Positions 2,950 through 58,483 of a stretch of 64,000 bases of DNA are shown here, piece after piece (the stretch's first letter is position 1; each line of letters starts with the position of its first letter). Where the stretch lies: assembly GCA_033065855.1 (NCBI GenBank), contig JAVXUO010003159.1, positions 62,001 through 126,000 on the forward strand, written 5' to 3'. Source of the DNA: Escallonia rubra. Its lineage: Eukaryota > Streptophyta > Magnoliopsida > Escalloniales > Escalloniaceae. Below the pieces are notes generated by a model that saw only the letters and a list, made by a program, of their open reading frames with translations, made no database searches and was not told the origin of the DNA. A program made the translations under genes and the position numbers.

Positions 2950-5040
2950 TGTGAGGCCCCGATCTTAATTAACTTCTAATCATTTTATTAAGTTTAAACA
3001 TATTTAATTTTGATTGAAATAATATGATCGTGTTATATTATTTGTCTACATAAAATGAATATTGAAATTAAGTTGTGGGTCCAAAATGTAATTATGTAAA
3101 ACTTTAGAGTTAAAAAGTAGTTATGCAAAGCTTTGGGATCAATTTCAAAATATCCTAAGTTAGCCATAAGGGGTCACGTGAAGGGGTGTGGGATTAATAG
3201 CATGTTGGTGTGCCACCTATGTTTGGTGGTGAGTAATCAAAGGAAAGAATAAAAAAAATGGGAAGAGAAGTTAAGTGGATAATTTAGAAACAAAAGAGAA
3301 GGTGGGAAGGAAGAGAACCATTCGGCCAAGAGAAACAAAGAGAAAGGAAAGAGTGGGAAAAGAAAAGAGAGAAAGAAGAAGGAAGAAAAGAAAAGAGAGA
3401 AAGGAAGAAGAGAAGAAGAAAAGGAAGAGTAAAGGAGGGGGATTTGCATCAACTTTCTCCTATTGGCTTGAGCTTAATTTTCTTGGTAGGTTATCTTGTT
3501 CTTTTAGGTTTTAAAGCATGTTAGAGAAGTATTATGATGTCAGTAAAACACTTATATATATTTTCGAAATGATTCAAGGAGAAGGGGGTTCATGTATACT
3601 GAAATCTGCAAAAACAGTCATGGAATTATGGTACTTTTTGGTGCTTAGAAATGTATACTTTTAGTTAAGATATAAACCTGGTTATTTTATATGTTATACT
3701 AGTACATGTATAGAGTATACATACCAAATTTAAGATTATTCCAAGTACTATTGCTATGGTTTAAAATTCGTGGCTTGGAACCTATCTTGTGAAACTGTTG
3801 CTAGGCAGATTCTGAAGTTTGTCTTTTTAAAGGGCTTAATATGATCTTAAATCAATATTTTCGTGTCAAGTAAAATACTGGGATGTAGATATTTAAGTCT
3901 AGTTTTCATAAATATATAGTTTGACTGTAGACGCCTTGTAATTAAATTGTTATGATTTTCGGAGTACAGAATACTCCTGCTGCCATTTGAAATACTGGGC
4001 AGATTAGGTTACATGTTTGGCATGTATTGTTGATAATACGGTAAATATAACTCGACAGGGGATTAAACCTCTTTTGAGGTACTTGATGACATTCATGTTG
4101 ACGTATGTACATGATTATGCATATCACGTGAAGGAGGAGGAAAAAAAGTGAGTTGAGGGTGTTATTTGCCGGGGTTGGAAGTTATCCGGCCAGGGTTCTC
4201 GTTCTCGTTCATGTCTTGATAGTGCGCACTAGCTATGCGTACTAATTCTCGAAAGGAATTATTGGCATGCCTGTGATGACGTTGGACTTCTTTTATCGAA
4301 CCCGCTACATCAGTTGGTTGCGATACGAAAAGTCTCTCGCACTCAGGGAAGGTTGGCTCGTGCATGATGGGCATTTTTGCATATTGATATTCTCGTACTT
4401 GGCTTATATTTGTCTTGAACTTTTTGTACTGTATGGTTATTCTTGGCGAGATCAAGTTAATATTTAGGTCTTGCTTGTCATTCTCGTGTATGTTCTACAA
4501 GATTTCAAATCTTGCTCGATATGTTATTCTCGTTTCTTTTGAAGGCAAGTGTGAGCAGATGCTTGCATGTGTTACTCGATATGTTAAATTATTCTTAAGT
4601 ACGTAGGTATCATCTGTTCAAGTGACTTGCATGTTCATACTAACTATACATAATATGATCAAGTCATGTTTGGACTTAAAAGCACCGGATACCCTACTGA
4701 GCCATTAGGCTGACCCATTCCCGATACTTTTTTTTCCTAGGTTCGGAGTCGGAGTATCTGCCAAGGGACGAAGAGGATTACCTCGGGGAGACTCAAGAGT
4801 ATTACGCTGGGTGAGCAACGTTTAGTTGTTCTTCTTTTATTTTGGAGTGTAGTACTTGTATAGTAGAGAGGTGGTCTGTAATATAATGTTTCGCTCAGTC
4901 TTTCCACTTATGGACGACTGTAATGTTTAAGCATACTTCCGCTGTTTCTTTTGAGGTTTTGTAGTAAAGCTCTGTTTATCCTTGAGGTATATGTGTTAAC
5001 CAGCCTGTTTAGCGTTGCGCCCCTTCCGGGGGGCGTGACA
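2950..5040 (+). mobile_element. Solo LTR of an LTR retrotransposon (Ty3/gypsy-like)
   Basis: The segment begins TGTGAGGCCCCG and ends CGGGGGGCGTGACA, so it has the TG...CA ends of an LTR. It is flanked by an exact 5-bp direct repeat ACTAC (2,945-2,949 and 5,041-5,045), the integrase-made target duplication. The 2,091 bp contain no gag-pol frames, and no second LTR lies nearby, so this is a solo LTR left by LTR-LTR recombination. The end sequences resemble gypsy elements; the lineage is not determined. Short open frames inside (for example 3,275-3,514) are low-complexity. Confidence 0.88.
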
Positions 5041-41794: not shown

Positions 41795-42428
41795 AAATAA
41801 ATAGGGTTAATTACTCTCGGCACCCCTGAGGTTTACCCTAAATTACACTCGGACCCCCATACATTTTGAAAATTACACTCCACTACCCTGAGGTTTGTAT
41901 CCGCATTTCACGGAGCCCCCAAAAATTGACGGAGACCCTAACTCCGTCAAAAGATGGTCTGACACTTCACTTTTTGGATTTTTCATCCCCAAAATGTCCC
42001 TCCCTTTCTTGAATAAAACCCCTCTTGCCCTTAGGGTTTTTATTCTTCTTCTTCTTCTTCATTCTCTTTCTCTTCAGACCCATTTCTTTCTCCTTCTTCT
42101 CCCTTTCCTTCACTTCATTCTTTCCCTTCTAACCAAAAAATGTCAAGGTCAGGACATGGTGACTTCGATCTAATCTCCTCCACCTCTTTAGACATTTATT
42201 TACATTTTAAAATACAGAACTCTAGACGACAACATGGTCTATATCTGCCAACCTCCTTCTCATCCAATCTTCTCGGGACAAACAAGTACGAGCCTCTTTC
42301 TACCAATAATACTCGCCACCTTTTGATTTTCCAAATGAAGATGTTTACGTTGGCAAGCCTTGTTCTCCTAATCCTGTGTTTGAAAGCCACTTACCCTCTC
42401 ACTCTTGTACTACTCCTGTTTGTCTCTC

Positions 42429-42557
42429 TTGCCCTTCTTCCTAAACCTCTGGTTGACTCCAGGAGGTTTTGCATGGAGAACCTATGAACAGAAAATCCCT
42501 TCAAAGCTTCGTGGTCCCATCGGTTGGCCTTTCTTGGGGACGATCCCGGCTCTAATG
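42429..42557 (+). pseudogene. CYP78A cytochrome P450 fragment, N-terminal part
   Basis: In frame with the ATG at 42,405, the translation FLNLWLTPGGFAWRTYEQK and LRGPIGWPFLGTIPALM matches the membrane-anchor end and proline-rich hinge of CYP78A P450s. The P450 sequence stops at the ATG at 42,555-42,557 and polyphenol oxidase sequence begins. The rest of the P450 resumes at 43,233 in the same frame. Captured by the surrounding element; haem-binding C-terminal parts are absent, so it cannot make an active P450. Confidence 0.8.
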
Positions 42558-43232
42558 CGGGCTCCTTTGAGAACGTTCCCCATGCTCCTGTCCATAGATG
42601 GACCGGCGACCCTACCCAAACAAACGGAGAGGACATGGGGATCTTCTACTCTGCTGCACGAGATCCCATATTCTACTGCCACCATGCTAATGTTGACCGC
42701 GCATGGACGATATGGAAAACCCTAGGAGGCAAACGCAAGGACTACAACGACCCAGACTGGTTAAACGCTTCGTTCGCATTCTACGACGAGAACGCGCAGC
42801 TAGTGCACGTCAAGGTGGCCGATTGTGGCGACCAGACAAGACTAGGGTACGCCTACCAGGCCGTGGACATACCCTGGCTCAAAAGCAAGCCGGTGCCTGG
42901 GAAGAAGAAGTCAAAAGTGGCTACTACGTTCGCAAGGGCAAACAACGCCACGGTTGTGTTCCCAATAACCTTAAACAAGATAGTGCAAGTGGTGATCAAA
43001 AGGCCGAAAAAGTCCCGGAGCAAGAGGCAGAAAGAAGAAGAGGAGGAAGTGCTATGCTTAGAAGGGATAATGCTGGACAGGGCAAAGTACATCAAGTTTG
43101 ATGTGTACATCAACGATGAAGATAGCAAGGGGAGTGCACCGGACAAGACGGAGCTGGTGGGGAGTTTTGTGAACTTGCCGCACCAGCACAGCCACAAGAG
43201 CATGTTCAAGAGAAGCCAGAAGTTTACCACAG
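42558..43232 (+). pseudogene. Polyphenol oxidase fragment (CuB, DWL and KFDV parts)
   Basis: The 271-codon frame 42,524-43,339 contains an intact ~225-residue piece of a plant polyphenol oxidase. HAPVH and FYCHHANVDRAW supply the three CuB copper ligands, YNDPDWLNASF is the DWL domain signature, and AKYIKFDVYIND the KFDV signature. The CuA half, transit peptide and the last part of the C-terminal domain are missing, so it should lack oxidase activity. The fragment has no stop or frameshift over its whole length. The first ~12 and last ~30 codons of the frame are out-of-frame P450 sequence, so a product would be a chimera. Whether it is expressed is unknown. Confidence 0.85.
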
Positions 43233-43602
43233 ATGGGAAGCCATGCTCACCGAAAACTAGCCGCTACGGCATGTTCCTTGGGCGCAACGCGTCTCATGGC
43301 ATTCAGTCTCGGCGTGACCCGCGTGATCATCAGCAGTGACCCCGACACGGCCAAGGAAATCCTTTGTGGGAGCTCGTTTTTGGACCGCCCCACGAAGGAA
43401 TCAGCCCGGCTGCTGATGTTCGAGCGTGCCATTGGATTCGCTCCCTCTGGTGCCTACTGGCGCCAGCTCAGGAAGATTGCGTCAAACCACATGTTCTCCC
43501 CAAGGAGAATTTCAAGCCTCGAGGGCGTTCGACAACATGTAGTCGACGACATGATTGCTGGGGCGGTCCAAAAACGGTCCAAAAGCATAAGAAACTCGAA
43601 GG
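43233..43602 (+). pseudogene. CYP78A cytochrome P450 fragment, continuation
   Basis: From the ATG at 43,233 the frame reads MGSHAHRKLAATACSLG, then MAFSLGVTRVIISSDPDTAK, FLDRPTKESARLLMFERAIG and YWRQLRKIASNHMFSPRRI. This is the conserved segment following the hinge in CYP78A proteins. Removing 42,555-43,232 (678 bp, a multiple of three) makes both P450 parts contiguous in frame, showing the oxidase piece was inserted into a P450 fragment. It ends shortly after a K/R-rich stretch at about 43,600; the I-helix, ExxR and haem-Cys regions are not present. Confidence 0.85.
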
Positions 43603-43825
43603 TAATCCCTCCACCTCGTCACTAGTCTGCAATTTCAATTTTTGGGTGAGAGTTTGAGCTTCGCACAGTGGTTGTGGTGGCCACGAACATGGTTAGACAG
43701 TGGGGGAGTTGCAGGTGTTCATGTGTGTGTGTTCAGCTATTTTATGTGCATGATCTGTAGTATTATATGTTAATGTGTGAGTATGAGAGGAGGGGATGGA
43801 TTTCAGTGAGTTGTTGAGGAGGTTG

Positions 43826-43826
<1 letters not shown>

Positions 43827-43860
<34 letters not shown>
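43827..43860 (+). repeat. (TG)n microsatellite in the Pack-MULE
   Basis: An uninterrupted TG repeat within a longer TG-rich, transcript-sense stretch (43,670-44,080) that forms the right interior of the gene-capturing element. No coding capacity. Confidence 0.85.
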
Positions 43861-43864
<4 letters not shown>

Positions 43865-44708
43865 GGGTGTGTTTGTGGGTGATTATGTGTGCGAATTGAA
43901 TGTAATTAGGTGTTAATGGTGCATATGTGTGTGTTGCAAGGTGTTTTGAGTGATATAGAGTGGGTTTGGTGGGGAATTAGTGTGTGTTTGTAAGGGTGAT
44001 TGTGTGGGTGTGCGACTGTACGTTTGTGTGTGACTGTGTGTGTATATGTGATAATCTGTGCGTATAGGCTGGTGTAATTGTGTTTAAATTATGTTACTTG
44101 GTGTTAGTTAATCCATGGAGGTGTTTTCTAGTGTGTTGAGGACAAATTAATGGGTGTATGTGTGAGTTGGAACCGCCATGTGATCCTGCTGAAGGTGGAA
44201 GAAGAGAAATAGGTGTAAATAAGGTGAAAGTAGGGGTGTGATTCAAATAGTAATTGAAATTGTCTTTCATGGTGAATGAAGGGTATGAGGGCAGAAAGGT
44301 CTTTTTATGACCAGCCGTTAACCCCGTCAAAGAAATCTAAATTTTTGGGGCTGAGTGTAATTTTCAAAGATAGTGAGGTCCGCGTGTAATTTAGGGAAAA
44401 CTTCAGGGGTGCCGAGAGTAATTAACCCTAATAAATAATGCAACAATTTGGACTTCCGGTTGTGAAATCTCTTGATTTTTGAAGAATCGTTTGGTACGGA
44501 TATTATCACCGAATATTATCACGTCATCGGCATCGATAGATCCGAATAGAGAGCTCGCCGCTATTTAGCAGAATTGCAAAAACATGTAATATGAATTTTC
44601 ACCTAAGAACTTCTCACGTACTCACTTTTTGGAAGGATGAGCACTTCGACTTTTGCATCTCTTTGGGACGTAAACCTTCACCGGTCTTAGATTGTCATGT
44701 GCCAATTA

Positions 44709-45406: not shown

Positions 45407-45507
45407 GCCAATTATCAAAATACTCTTAAGTGGGTGGCGTTTATACCATGTGATTTATATAAACAATGAGCATTGAGTGACTACAATATATGAGATCGTA
45501 GAGTCTA

Positions 45508-45847
45508 CTCCCTCCGTCCCACAAAAAATTATCGTATTTTCTTTTTGAGACGTCTGACAAAAATTACTCACTTTTCAAATTAAGAAATATTATGTAGGTA
45601 CTTTTACATATTTATCTTTTTTAATTATATTTTCTCTCCACATTTATCTCTTCACCAACTAATTTTTTTTTCTCCGGACCGACTTATTTATATTATTTTA
45701 TTTTATTTCTCTATCCACATTTAACACTCTACTATTTAATTTTTTCTCTCATGTCCTATTTTCTTTCTCTCTTTTCTCTAAAAGTTAGAATGAAAAGCAT
45801 ACAATATATGATTTAAAACGTAATCAATTCACGTGGGACAAAGAAAA
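45508..45847. mobile_element. Stowaway/Tc1-mariner-type MITE
   Basis: The left end CTCCCTCCGTCCCACAAAAA, preceded by TA, is the classical Stowaway terminus. The right end is decayed (ACGTGGGACAAAGAAAATA) but keeps the GTGGGAC core in inverted orientation. About 340 bp, AT-rich, no coding capacity. Confidence 0.75.
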
Positions 45848-47102: not shown

Positions 47103-47280
47103 CTATCCCCTCACATCTAGCCTAAACTAGCATTATACCTCTATATACATCTATAGTGCTTTATTCTCTTTTATCTATAAGATAAATCTGAACTACTACA
47201 GCCCAATTAGTATCTGGGACCTGGGTATTTACTTATCTCTCTCTTGAATCTGTGCTAATCATTTTCTTGAGGTTTCATTC

Positions 47281-47742
47281 ATGGCTTCCTCTAGTGGGAC
47301 ATCTTCAGGGTCATCTCTGCTGCAAAACTCTGGTTCTGAAGAAGATCTTCAACAGCTGATGGATCAGAGAAAGAGGAAGAGAATGATATCGAACCGCGAA
47401 TCTGCGAGAAGGTCAAGGATGAGGAAGCAGAAGCACTTGGATGACCTGATGAACCAATTGGCTCAGCTGAGGAAAGAAAACAACCTCATCATCACCAACT
47501 TGAGTGCCACCAGCGAGCATTACATCAATGTTGAGTCGGAGAACTCGGTCCTCCGAGCCCAGGTGGGAGAGCTCAGCCACAGGTTGCAGTCACTCACTGA
47601 AATCATCAGCTTCATGAGTGATGGTTTTGGCTCTGCTGAGGTGCAGCCTAATTACAACTATGGGTTCATGAATAACGGCCTGAATTATCTGTATGTGAAC
47701 CAGCCGCCCATCATGGCCGCTGCAGACATGATGCAGTACTGA
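47281..47742 (+). CDS. S1-group bZIP transcription factor
   Basis: Single-exon 153-aa basic leucine zipper protein. The S1 group binds ACGT-containing elements, usually as heterodimers with C-group bZIPs, and reprogrammes metabolism under low energy or sugar signals. The basic region holds NRESARRSR (N38-x7-R46) preceded by KRKR. The leucine zipper runs about 53-105 and is long, as in this group. The N-terminus is Ser-rich and the tail ends NQPPIMAAADMMQY, similar to bZIP11/bZIP44-type proteins. Small size, lack of introns and the SC-peptide uORF in the leader together fix the S1 assignment; which of the five S1 members it corresponds to cannot be told from sequence alone. Expected regulation is sucrose-induced translational repression through the uORF. 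Confidence 0.95.
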   Translation: MASSSGTSSGSSLLQNSGSEEDLQQLMDQRKRKRMISNRESARRSRMRKQKHLDDLMNQLAQLRKENNLIITNLSATSEHYINVESENSVLRAQVGELSHRLQSLTEIISFMSDGFGSAEVQPNYNYGFMNNGLNYLYVNQPPIMAAADMMQY

Positions 47743-56497: not shown

Positions 56498-58222
56498 TTA
56501 CCAGTAATCACCACAAGAGCATTCCCCATTCTTAAAATAATGAAAACGTATCCGATCCCTAATGACTATCTCTCTGTGGTAAATCTTTGACGCGAGTTTC
56601 ATGAAAGAGTGGCAGTCCTCGCATGATCTCAAGTTTTTCACAATCCTAATGATAGTTCCCGGAATTTTTTTAATTAGTCCAAATGAAACTGCAAGTTTCT
56701 CGCTGTGGTGAAGTAGCTGAGACGCTTTCTCCACGTCATCTATTTCAAGCAACACCTCTGAAAGCTTAGGGTTATAACCTTGGCGTCTTAAGCTCTCCTC
56801 CATTTCATCCAATTTTCTATATATCTTTTCTGCCTCAGGATGACCAGAATCTCCAGCTGTAAATTCATGAACAACCTCGGATAATTCAATCCTACTAGAA
56901 CCCGGTGGCTTTAGAAGTCCCTTTTTATTCATCAAGTCCCGCATCCTTGCCTTATCATGCCACCTTCCCTCGGATGCATATACATTGCTAAGAAGTACAT
57001 AACTTCCACAATCACTTGAATTCATCTGAAGAAGGTCAAGACATTTTGTCAAGCGGTCTCCCCTGTTAGTTTCTCCATGAATTTTACAAGCCGATATCAA
57101 TGTCCTCCACAGTATAGCATCTGGTTCAATGGGCATCTTTCTAATAAACTCTTCAGCATCTTCTAAATGCCCAGCCCGAGCAAGTAGGTCTACTACACAT
57201 CCATAATGTTGAATCGCTGGTCTTACTTTATATTTCTTCCTCATGTTTTTAAAATAGGACAAGCCTTCATGAACCCAACCCGCGTTCCTACAAGCCGATA
57301 AAACAGCAGTTATCGTCCTCTCATCAGGTTCCAAATCAAGTTTTGTCATCTGGTCAAACAAAAAGATGGCATCTTTTGACCGCCCGTGACTTGCAAGACC
57401 AGATATCATTGCTGTCCATGCAAAAACATCTTTATTGAAGGTCTCGTCGAAAATCCGCAACGCGCTATCTAGGCACCCACATTTCGAGTACATGTCAATA
57501 AGAGCAGTACTAACATTAGCTTGTGAACCGAGTTTCTTTTCCTCAACAATCTTATTCACTTTCATTCCAACACCTAGAGCCCCCGTGTCAGCACAAGCTC
57601 TAAGAACCGAAACAAGCGTCGCCTCGTTCGGATCGACACCATCTTCCACCATTTGCTCAAATAACGTTATCGCCTCAATAGGTCGATCATTGTCAACAAA
57701 CCCATCAATTATCGACGTCCAAGACACGACGTCTCTCCCCGACATTTTATCAAACACCTTCCGCGCATCACGCGATTGACCACACCCGGAGTACATATGG
57801 ATCATGGCATTCTGTATATATTGATCCGACTCAAAACCCAGCTTGCATATCAATCCATGAAGCATTTTCCCGAGGTGGGTCAGTCTCAATTTGGAGCAAG
57901 CTTTGAGGACAAACGGGTAAGTAAACTTGTCAGGTCGGGGGGTGTCGACGCGTTGTTGGTGGTGCATGCTGAGGAAGAGGGAGATGGATTGGGTCGGGTC
58001 GCGTGAGTCGGAGTAGGCCCGAATCATGGTGTTGGAGTAATAGGAGTTTGGGGTGTGGAGAGAGTTCAGGATGAGGCGAGCGTAGGTGGGGTTTCCCAAG
58101 GGCGAGAGGGCTGAGAAGGTGAAGAGCTTGCTGAGGTTTTGGGCGTGGGTTTGGTCGTGATAGCCTGACTTGAGTATCTGGGCGTGTAACTGCACGGCCT
58201 CCGCCATGGTTGTGATTTCCAT
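56498..58222 (-). CDS. Pentatricopeptide repeat protein, PLS-DYW class
   Basis: Intronless 574-aa organelle RNA-binding protein of the type that selects cytidines for C-to-U editing. P, L and S repeats fill roughly 50-410 (for example NAMIHMYSGCGQSRDARKVF, NVSTALIDMYSKCGCLDSAL). They are followed by E/E+ motifs, a PG box (LLKPPGSSRIEL) and a DYW cytidine-deaminase-like domain. The zinc/catalytic signature is present: HSE (506-508), CEDCH (C534, C537) and CSC near the end, with DYW as the last three residues. The start at 58,222 gives MEITTMAEAVQLHAQIL; an internal Met five codons on is equally usable. A mitochondrial or plastid transit sequence is not obvious at the N-terminus. The orthologue and the edited site cannot be named from sequence. 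Confidence 0.95.
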   Translation of the reverse strand: MEITTMAEAVQLHAQILKSGYHDQTHAQNLSKLFTFSALSPLGNPTYARLILNSLHTPNSYYSNTMIRAYSDSRDPTQSISLFLSMHHQQRVDTPRPDKFTYPFVLKACSKLRLTHLGKMLHGLICKLGFESDQYIQNAMIHMYSGCGQSRDARKVFDKMSGRDVVSWTSIIDGFVDNDRPIEAITLFEQMVEDGVDPNEATLVSVLRACADTGALGVGMKVNKIVEEKKLGSQANVSTALIDMYSKCGCLDSALRIFDETFNKDVFAWTAMISGLASHGRSKDAIFLFDQMTKLDLEPDERTITAVLSACRNAGWVHEGLSYFKNMRKKYKVRPAIQHYGCVVDLLARAGHLEDAEEFIRKMPIEPDAILWRTLISACKIHGETNRGDRLTKCLDLLQMNSSDCGSYVLLSNVYASEGRWHDKARMRDLMNKKGLLKPPGSSRIELSEVVHEFTAGDSGHPEAEKIYRKLDEMEESLRRQGYNPKLSEVLLEIDDVEKASQLLHHSEKLAVSFGLIKKIPGTIIRIVKNLRSCEDCHSFMKLASKIYHREIVIRDRIRFHYFKNGECSCGDYW

Positions 58223-58483
58223 GGCACACCACGCTTGCAGTTGCCAAACGCTCTCAATTCGAATTCTGTGGATGGGTTATCTCCTTGCTGGACCAGGCTT
58301 CGGGGAGGCTTATCCACCCGCCCAGCCCTGATTAAATATACGGTTAGGTCAAAAGTGTAACCCAGCCCAGATCAGCCCAACCATAATAAAGCATTCTGGA
58401 ATGCATATAAACTCAGCCCAGCCCGACCATAATCAAGCATTCTGGAAGACTGGAACTTTAACCGCCTGAAAGAGGAGAAGTTT

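Follow-up and report, generated by a model that had tools for sequence, protein, structure and literature searches.

How does a fragment of one host gene come to lie inside a fragment of another, within a single transposon? The question is raised by a locus of Escallonia rubra in a 64,000-nucleotide stretch of contig JAVXUO010003159.1 (assembly GCA_033065855.1, positions 62,001 to 126,000 of the forward strand), referred to here as the window. The original prediction, made from the letters of the window, placed a polyphenol oxidase (PPO) piece inside a P450 piece within a transposon. Pfam domains and donor alignment confirm this arrangement, in an element whose ends lie at 41,804 and 44,428. 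The most satisfactory explanation, and a likely one, is a non-autonomous Pack-MULE built by serial microhomology-guided break repair.

Structure and copies of the element

The genome carrying the window (566 Mb, 3222 contigs) was searched for related sequences. The composite is present at at least three genomic sites: the window, contig C2119 and contig C1051 (L013). Identity to the window copy is 99.6% for the C2119 copy and 99.3% for that on C1051, and pairwise substitutions among the three number 7/2623, 10/2623 and 8/2624 (0.27-0.38%). Target-site duplications in MULEs measure 9-11 bp (PMC3310237); here they are 9 bp long, matching at all nine positions in the other two copies (AATTAAGAA, AAAGAATTT) and at eight in the window. 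The flanks, compared over 10 kb, differ among the copies apart from one 82-bp, 78% match that is non-collinear. The composite has thus transposed as a unit, with three copies, different flanks and a duplication at each. The 82-bp match joins window 45,506-45,586 to L012:3845-3923, in the left flank of the C2119 copy; it stands in another arrangement and is perhaps another dispersed repeat. The inverted arms are 86% complementary over 70 nt, or 89% over about 78 bp in the window copy, and are shorter than the terminal inverted repeats typical of MULEs, which run from 100 bp up (PMC3310237). The element is non-autonomous and carries fragments of normal host genes present elsewhere, as Pack-MULEs do: the P450 and PPO donors lie on other contigs. 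The third captured piece is a repeat fragment rather than a gene. The features of the element are collected in table 1.

Table 1. Features of the composite element and its borders, in window coordinates.
Feature	Position	Strand	Remarks
Left target-site duplication	41795..41803	.	AAATAAATA; 8/9 match to right one
Pack-MULE composite	41,804-44,428	.	At least three copies in the genome
Left MULE arm	41804..42162	+	TIR, subterminal sequence and first codons of GRF zinc-finger ORF (ATG at 42140)
P450 donor piece a	42160..42541	+	5' leader and first part of exon 1; L009:4169-4550, 97.4%; TGA (42160-42162) shared with TE arm
PPO piece	42536..43225	+	L010:4599-5288, 98.8%; paralogue L011 90.5%; overlaps with P450 GGGGAC (42536-42541) and TT (43224-43225); unambiguous insert 42542-43223
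P450 donor piece b	43224..43561	+	L009:4552-4889, 97.3%
Filler template within P450 piece b	43375..43389	+	Includes derived T at 43381
Templated filler	43562..43583	+	43562-43576 inverts 43375-43389 exactly; GTCCAAAA (43577-43584) repeats part of it
Third captured sequence, X	43584..44264	+	Internal piece of dispersed repeat family; C80:166722-167401, 93.7%
P450 donor piece c	44265..44289	+	25/25 to L009:5016-5040; TATGAG (44284-44289) shared with right TE arm
Right MULE arm	44284..44428	+	With TIR; 145 bp; 94.5% to L025, 96.6% to L042
Right target-site duplication	44429..44437	.	TAATAAATA; 8/9 match to left one

Two other open reading frames lie further along the window. The element may occupy the upstream region of a bZIP transcription factor gene, whose frame (47248-47739; bZIP_1, 1e-10) starts about 2.8 kb further downstream. 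A frame of 592 codons for a PPR-DYW protein occupies 56501-58276 on the reverse strand (DYW_deaminase, 2.6e-37).

Donors of the captured pieces

With window positions 42,429-43,602 as the query, all seven candidates were scored and nine matches obtained. Three are the composites. The PPO sequence is matched at 99% on contig C984, where a paralogue is matched at 90%; the P450 sequence is matched by two abutting pieces on C3211; and a distant PPO on C3178 is matched in two pieces. Both donor loci that had been expected in the host genome were located. The P450 donor (L009, on C3211) encodes a p450 domain in two open exons, the splicing being putative; it is a putative member of subfamily CYP78A, the name given in the original prediction, where Pfam says p450 only. 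At the PPO donor (L010, on C984) the frame stays open for 613 codons between stops and encodes the three PPO domains. Within the window, a frame of 283 amino acids is assigned by Pfam to PPO1_KFDV (7.8e-31), PPO1_DWL (2.5e-23) and Tyrosinase (1.3e-15). The right-hand P450 piece is assigned to p450 (1.6e-06), and the 113-aa left-hand frame by itself to no family. Translation agrees with the predicted layout, in which PPO is flanked on either side by P450 in a different frame.

On either side of the PPO insert, P450 sequence follows the donor collinearly to 1 bp, a single base (L009:4551) having been lost between pieces a and b. Because of this collinearity, the PPO piece is read as nested in the P450 piece. 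The insert measures 682 bp and, less the lost P450 base, adds a net 681. The original prediction differed in its details: an insert of 678 bp, breakpoints at two ATGs that supplied the microhomology, and a P450 frame exactly restored by its removal. Donor alignment puts the junctions at 42,536-42,541 and 43,224-43,225. The ATG at 42,555 belongs to PPO, 14 bp beyond the left overlap, and that at 43,233 to P450, 8 bp beyond the right one. The breakpoints thus lie elsewhere, and the nesting stands. The frame argument could not separate 678 from 681, because both are multiples of three, and a 1-bp insertion at 42,419, absent from the donor, disrupts the P450 frame regardless.

We attribute no protein function to the element: its P450 reading frame is disrupted, and that of PPO, though open, continues into P450 sequence in the wrong frame. 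The 283-codon PPO-frame ORF (window 42488-43339) begins and ends in out-of-frame P450 sequence, and its product would have new residues at both termini. Selection on a chimaeric protein was considered and set aside: the element-side PPO differences are synonymous in four of five cases, too few to be informative and confounded with donor alleles.

The combination of two host genes, P450 and PPO, is upheld, and the account of the element gains three parts that the original prediction had missed: sequence X (43,584-44,264), an inverted filler (43,562-43,583) and a P450 remnant (44,265-44,289). P450 donor bases 4890-5015 (126 bp) are missing between pieces b and c. X is 681 bp long, with its best match on C80 (93.7%). 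Used alone as a query, it matches the three composites and C80; at least 36 further places align to part of it at 69-90%, among the best 40 of 98 candidates, and X is accordingly assigned to a dispersed repeat family. Six relatives (L054-L059) were compared at the ends. Homology to C80 passes the left end of X by about 280 bp in L054, and the right end by 130-360 bp in L057, L058 and L059; L055 and L056 pass the left end by only about 15 bp, L055 having a further short match beyond the right end. Family homology continues past both its ends: X is a fragment that lacks termini, which speaks for capture. The alternative reading as a nested transposon was rejected, given the homology that passes the ends of X in four of the six relatives and the missing 126 bp of P450. 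In the 6 kb downstream of the C80 match no clear gene was seen, and the ORFs there presumably resemble retrotransposon gag.

Seams between the pieces

Donor alignment allows seven seams to be read at base level in the element. From left to right, they are (i) TE|P450, where TGA (3 bp) is shared (p 0.062); (ii) P450|PPO, where GGGGAC (6 bp) is shared (p 0.0017); (iii) PPO|P450, where TT (2 bp) is shared (p 0.158); (iv) P450|filler, with TGG (3 bp); (v) filler|X, with one A (1 bp); (vi) X|P450, which is blunt; and (vii) P450|TE at the right arm, where TATGAG (6 bp) is shared (p 0.0018). The p values come from random-breakpoint simulation with 200000 draws each for four of the seven seams, and two of these four, TE|P450 and PPO|P450, fail 0.05; like the blunt seam and the 1-bp one, they count against the repair reading. 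Five of the seven seams share 2-6 bp. A repair-type, microhomology-driven mechanism had been proposed from the ATGs; that detail falls, and the idea itself draws support from the 6-bp identities at P450|PPO and at the right arm. In the C1051 copy one G is missing within the GGGGAC seam, at the base matching window 42536, probably through later slippage.

A filler that carries a derived base

Over its first 15 bases the filler is identical to the opposite strand of P450 sequence that lies about 170 bp away. Matches of composition-shuffled 15-mers to the local 1.4 kb arose by chance in 2 of 200000 trials. The longest exact inverted match within 42,160-43,600 is 18, a length reached in 4 of 1000 Markov shuffles with palindromes counted; the seam-specific 15-mer test is preferred. 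The filler is a short insert copied from the nearby flank with microhomology priming, as templated end-joining fillers are. It would be a signature of polymerase-theta-type end joining, the enzyme being one that we infer from the sequence left behind.

The copied stretch contains a substitution. Position 43,381 of the window is T in the element and C in the donor, a change within a CpG that turns TCG (S) into TTG (L). The filler shows the complementary A twice, in the full copy and in the partial one; all three copies of the element agree. The residue is A in all five of the best P450 paralogues (46-48%), S in the donor and L in the element. Two of these paralogues (L052 and L053) are near-identical, so that four of the five are independent. 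The aligned residues in five solved P450 structures are S, S, K, A and K. Because the donor has S and the paralogues have A, the T that gives L in the element is regarded as derived. The filler holds this derived T and therefore, most simply, was copied after the P450 piece had left its donor and mutated. The X insert would then, on the simplest reading, have joined after that mutation, which supports its order relative to P450. In principle, the donor allele may have had T at capture, or later gene conversion between the arms may have matched the two sites. Differences from the donor are synonymous at six of seven sites in P450 piece b and at one of five in the coding part of piece a; because of the former count, some of the divergence may stem from the donor side or from alleles.

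The MULE family in the genome

The left arm is matched at 89-93% at at least 37 other places, among the best 40 of 1685 candidates, three of the 40 being the composites. Twenty-one other left-arm loci were compared: 16 share the interior of L021 along most of its length, and five (L025, L029, L035, L041 and L042) depart from it. A 6008-bp relative, L043 (C388:67381-73450), has the same arms as the composite. Between them Pfam finds DBD_Tnp_Mut (1.1e-14) and SWIM, both above the cut-off, and a MULE domain at 21.9 bits, below its cut-off of 27.6. The MuDR-type coding region is divided over two ORFs. L043 is thus a relative with a MuDR-type transposase between the same arms. The 9-mers that flank L043 differ, and no matching pair was found there. 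An uninterrupted GRF zinc-finger ORF (Zn_ribbon_GRF, 5.4e-07) adjoins its left arm, on the strand opposite to the transposase ORFs. In the window element the P450 piece cuts this ORF at its eighth codon. This region of L043 is common to most of the left-arm copies compared, where a GRF ORF would be putative.

The departing loci include a sister element of 1713 bp (L042:1504-3217) with a 9/9 target-site duplication and a Glyco_hydro_79n fragment (2.3e-23), which is another Pack-MULE of the same family. The insert of L025 was read by us as EXO70-like; Pfam assigns it to no family, and this identity was dropped.

Assembly of the composite

The following course of assembly is proposed. (i) A MULE like the 6-kb L043 would have lost its interior; the boundaries of the loss are visible in the alignment, and its timing we infer. 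The gap would have been filled by 872 bp from the 5' end of the P450 gene, joined at its left border through the 3-bp TGA and at its right border through the 6-bp TATGAG. (ii) A break in the P450 piece would have been filled with the 682-bp PPO copy, entered through GGGGAC and left through TT with the loss of one P450 base. This structure can be read directly; the event would have followed the P450 capture, and may have come before or after step (iii). (iii) A second break, 3' of the PPO insert, would have removed 126 bp of P450, its order relative to the P450 capture being supported by the filler. The end would have folded back onto the P450 piece, with TGG priming on CCA, and 15 bp would have been copied inverted. 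Release, re-priming, repetition of part of the copy and joining to 681 bp of the dispersed repeat would have completed the repair; the sequence is legible at each point and the steps are a reconstruction. (iv) Last, the completed element moved as one piece, and it now occupies at least three sites.

That P450 came before PPO had been part of the original prediction. This order is favoured, since the P450 flanks match the donor collinearly to 1 bp, and it would agree with the steps above. A search for the sister element with uninterrupted P450 that would prove it was unsuccessful: when the genome is queried with the P450 donor segment, all four candidates in this assembly are the donor and the three composites, and no element with P450 only or with P450 plus one insert is among them. 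Divergence from the donors was rejected as evidence for the order of capture, since the differences are not significant: P450 has 15/719 substitutions and PPO 8/690 (Fisher p 0.21), and X has 17/666 (PPO against X, p 0.07).

Some of these observations would suit a single repair event with many template switches, in which one strand passed from P450 to PPO, back to P450, through the fold-back to X, to P450 again and on to the MULE arm. All pieces are in all three copies, intermediates were not found in this assembly, the donor divergences do not differ significantly, and template switching with microhomology is a published model for animal Pack-TIRs (PMC8277862). Against this, a return to P450 one base from the point of exit, by way of 2 bp, is in our judgement improbable if one strand wandered between templates, and is readily expected of a break filled in place. 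The derived base of the filler, absent from the donor and from all five paralogues, further implies that time passed between the P450 capture and the X event. A single event is therefore considered unlikely. Still less probable is a chimaera of an ectopic P450 copy and PPO that was built at a host locus and captured by a MULE afterwards. The seams would be compatible with such a history, and the P450|TE seams look alike whichever came first, but genome searches with the P450 donor segment (four of four candidates) and with the composite (seven of seven) find no P450-PPO-P450 host locus outside the three copies. An assembly artefact, for which no supporting point was found, is scarcely credible for a structure seen at three places with different flanks, where the other two copies are 99.3-99.6% identical.

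Serial break repair, the preferred reading, leads to a wider proposal that we put forward tentatively, since it could as readily fail as hold. Captured DNA within a Pack-MULE may itself host further captures, through at least three separate break-repair events, the later ones inside an earlier piece and away from the transposon ends. Such elements would grow independently of transposition, and substitutions in fillers would serve as time stamps of the order.

Comparison with known systems

The element resembles the Pack-MULEs of rice, maize and tomato in its Mutator-type arms, its 9-bp target-site duplication, its fragments of host genes found elsewhere and its multiplication by transposition. 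Two or more parental genes are given for about 5-10% of MULE-derived putative genes in Oryza (PMC4858842). What sets it apart is that later pieces are nested in one captured before them, that the donor order is kept to 1 bp around one of these, and that one seam has an inverted filler holding a derived base. A limited search of the open-access literature found no case of nested capture with a derived-base filler in Pack-MULEs.

Animal Pack-TIRs are described as having breakpoint microhomology of 1-36 bp (median 2), and gap-filling and FoSTeST models have been put forward for them (PMC8277862). The likeness extends to gap filling of the TE interior and to multicopy cases that arise by later transposition (PMC8277862); the window element differs as a plant MULE with three donors and two nested replacements. 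Several host fragments per element are likewise reported for maize Helitrons (PMC3288121) and for the soybean CACTA element Tgm-Express1, which has five (PMC1947982). These belong to other superfamilies. Stepwise gain in maize Helitrons is argued from related elements (PMC3288121), whereas the order here is taken from a substitution copied into a filler. Polymerase-theta fillers of Arabidopsis are short templated insertions, often from the flank, attributed to repeated rounds of microhomology-primed extension (PMC10923293). The window filler is likewise a short templated insertion from the flank, though as a fossil inside a transposon, where polymerase theta is the presumed enzyme.

How DNA transposons acquire unlinked genes has been described as yet to be understood (PMC3310237), and a 2026 review allows for an undiscovered acquisition mechanism (PMC13317346). 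The window element is a genuine and well-resolved multi-donor Pack-MULE. Such elements were already known, and it is ordinary in kind; its distinction is a partial record of its own assembly order. The record can be read in copies 0.27-0.38% apart, with both gene donors in the same genome and seven seams legible to the base. Where a substitution has been copied into a templated filler, captures can be ordered without sister elements, an approach that could be applied to Pack-MULEs genome-wide.
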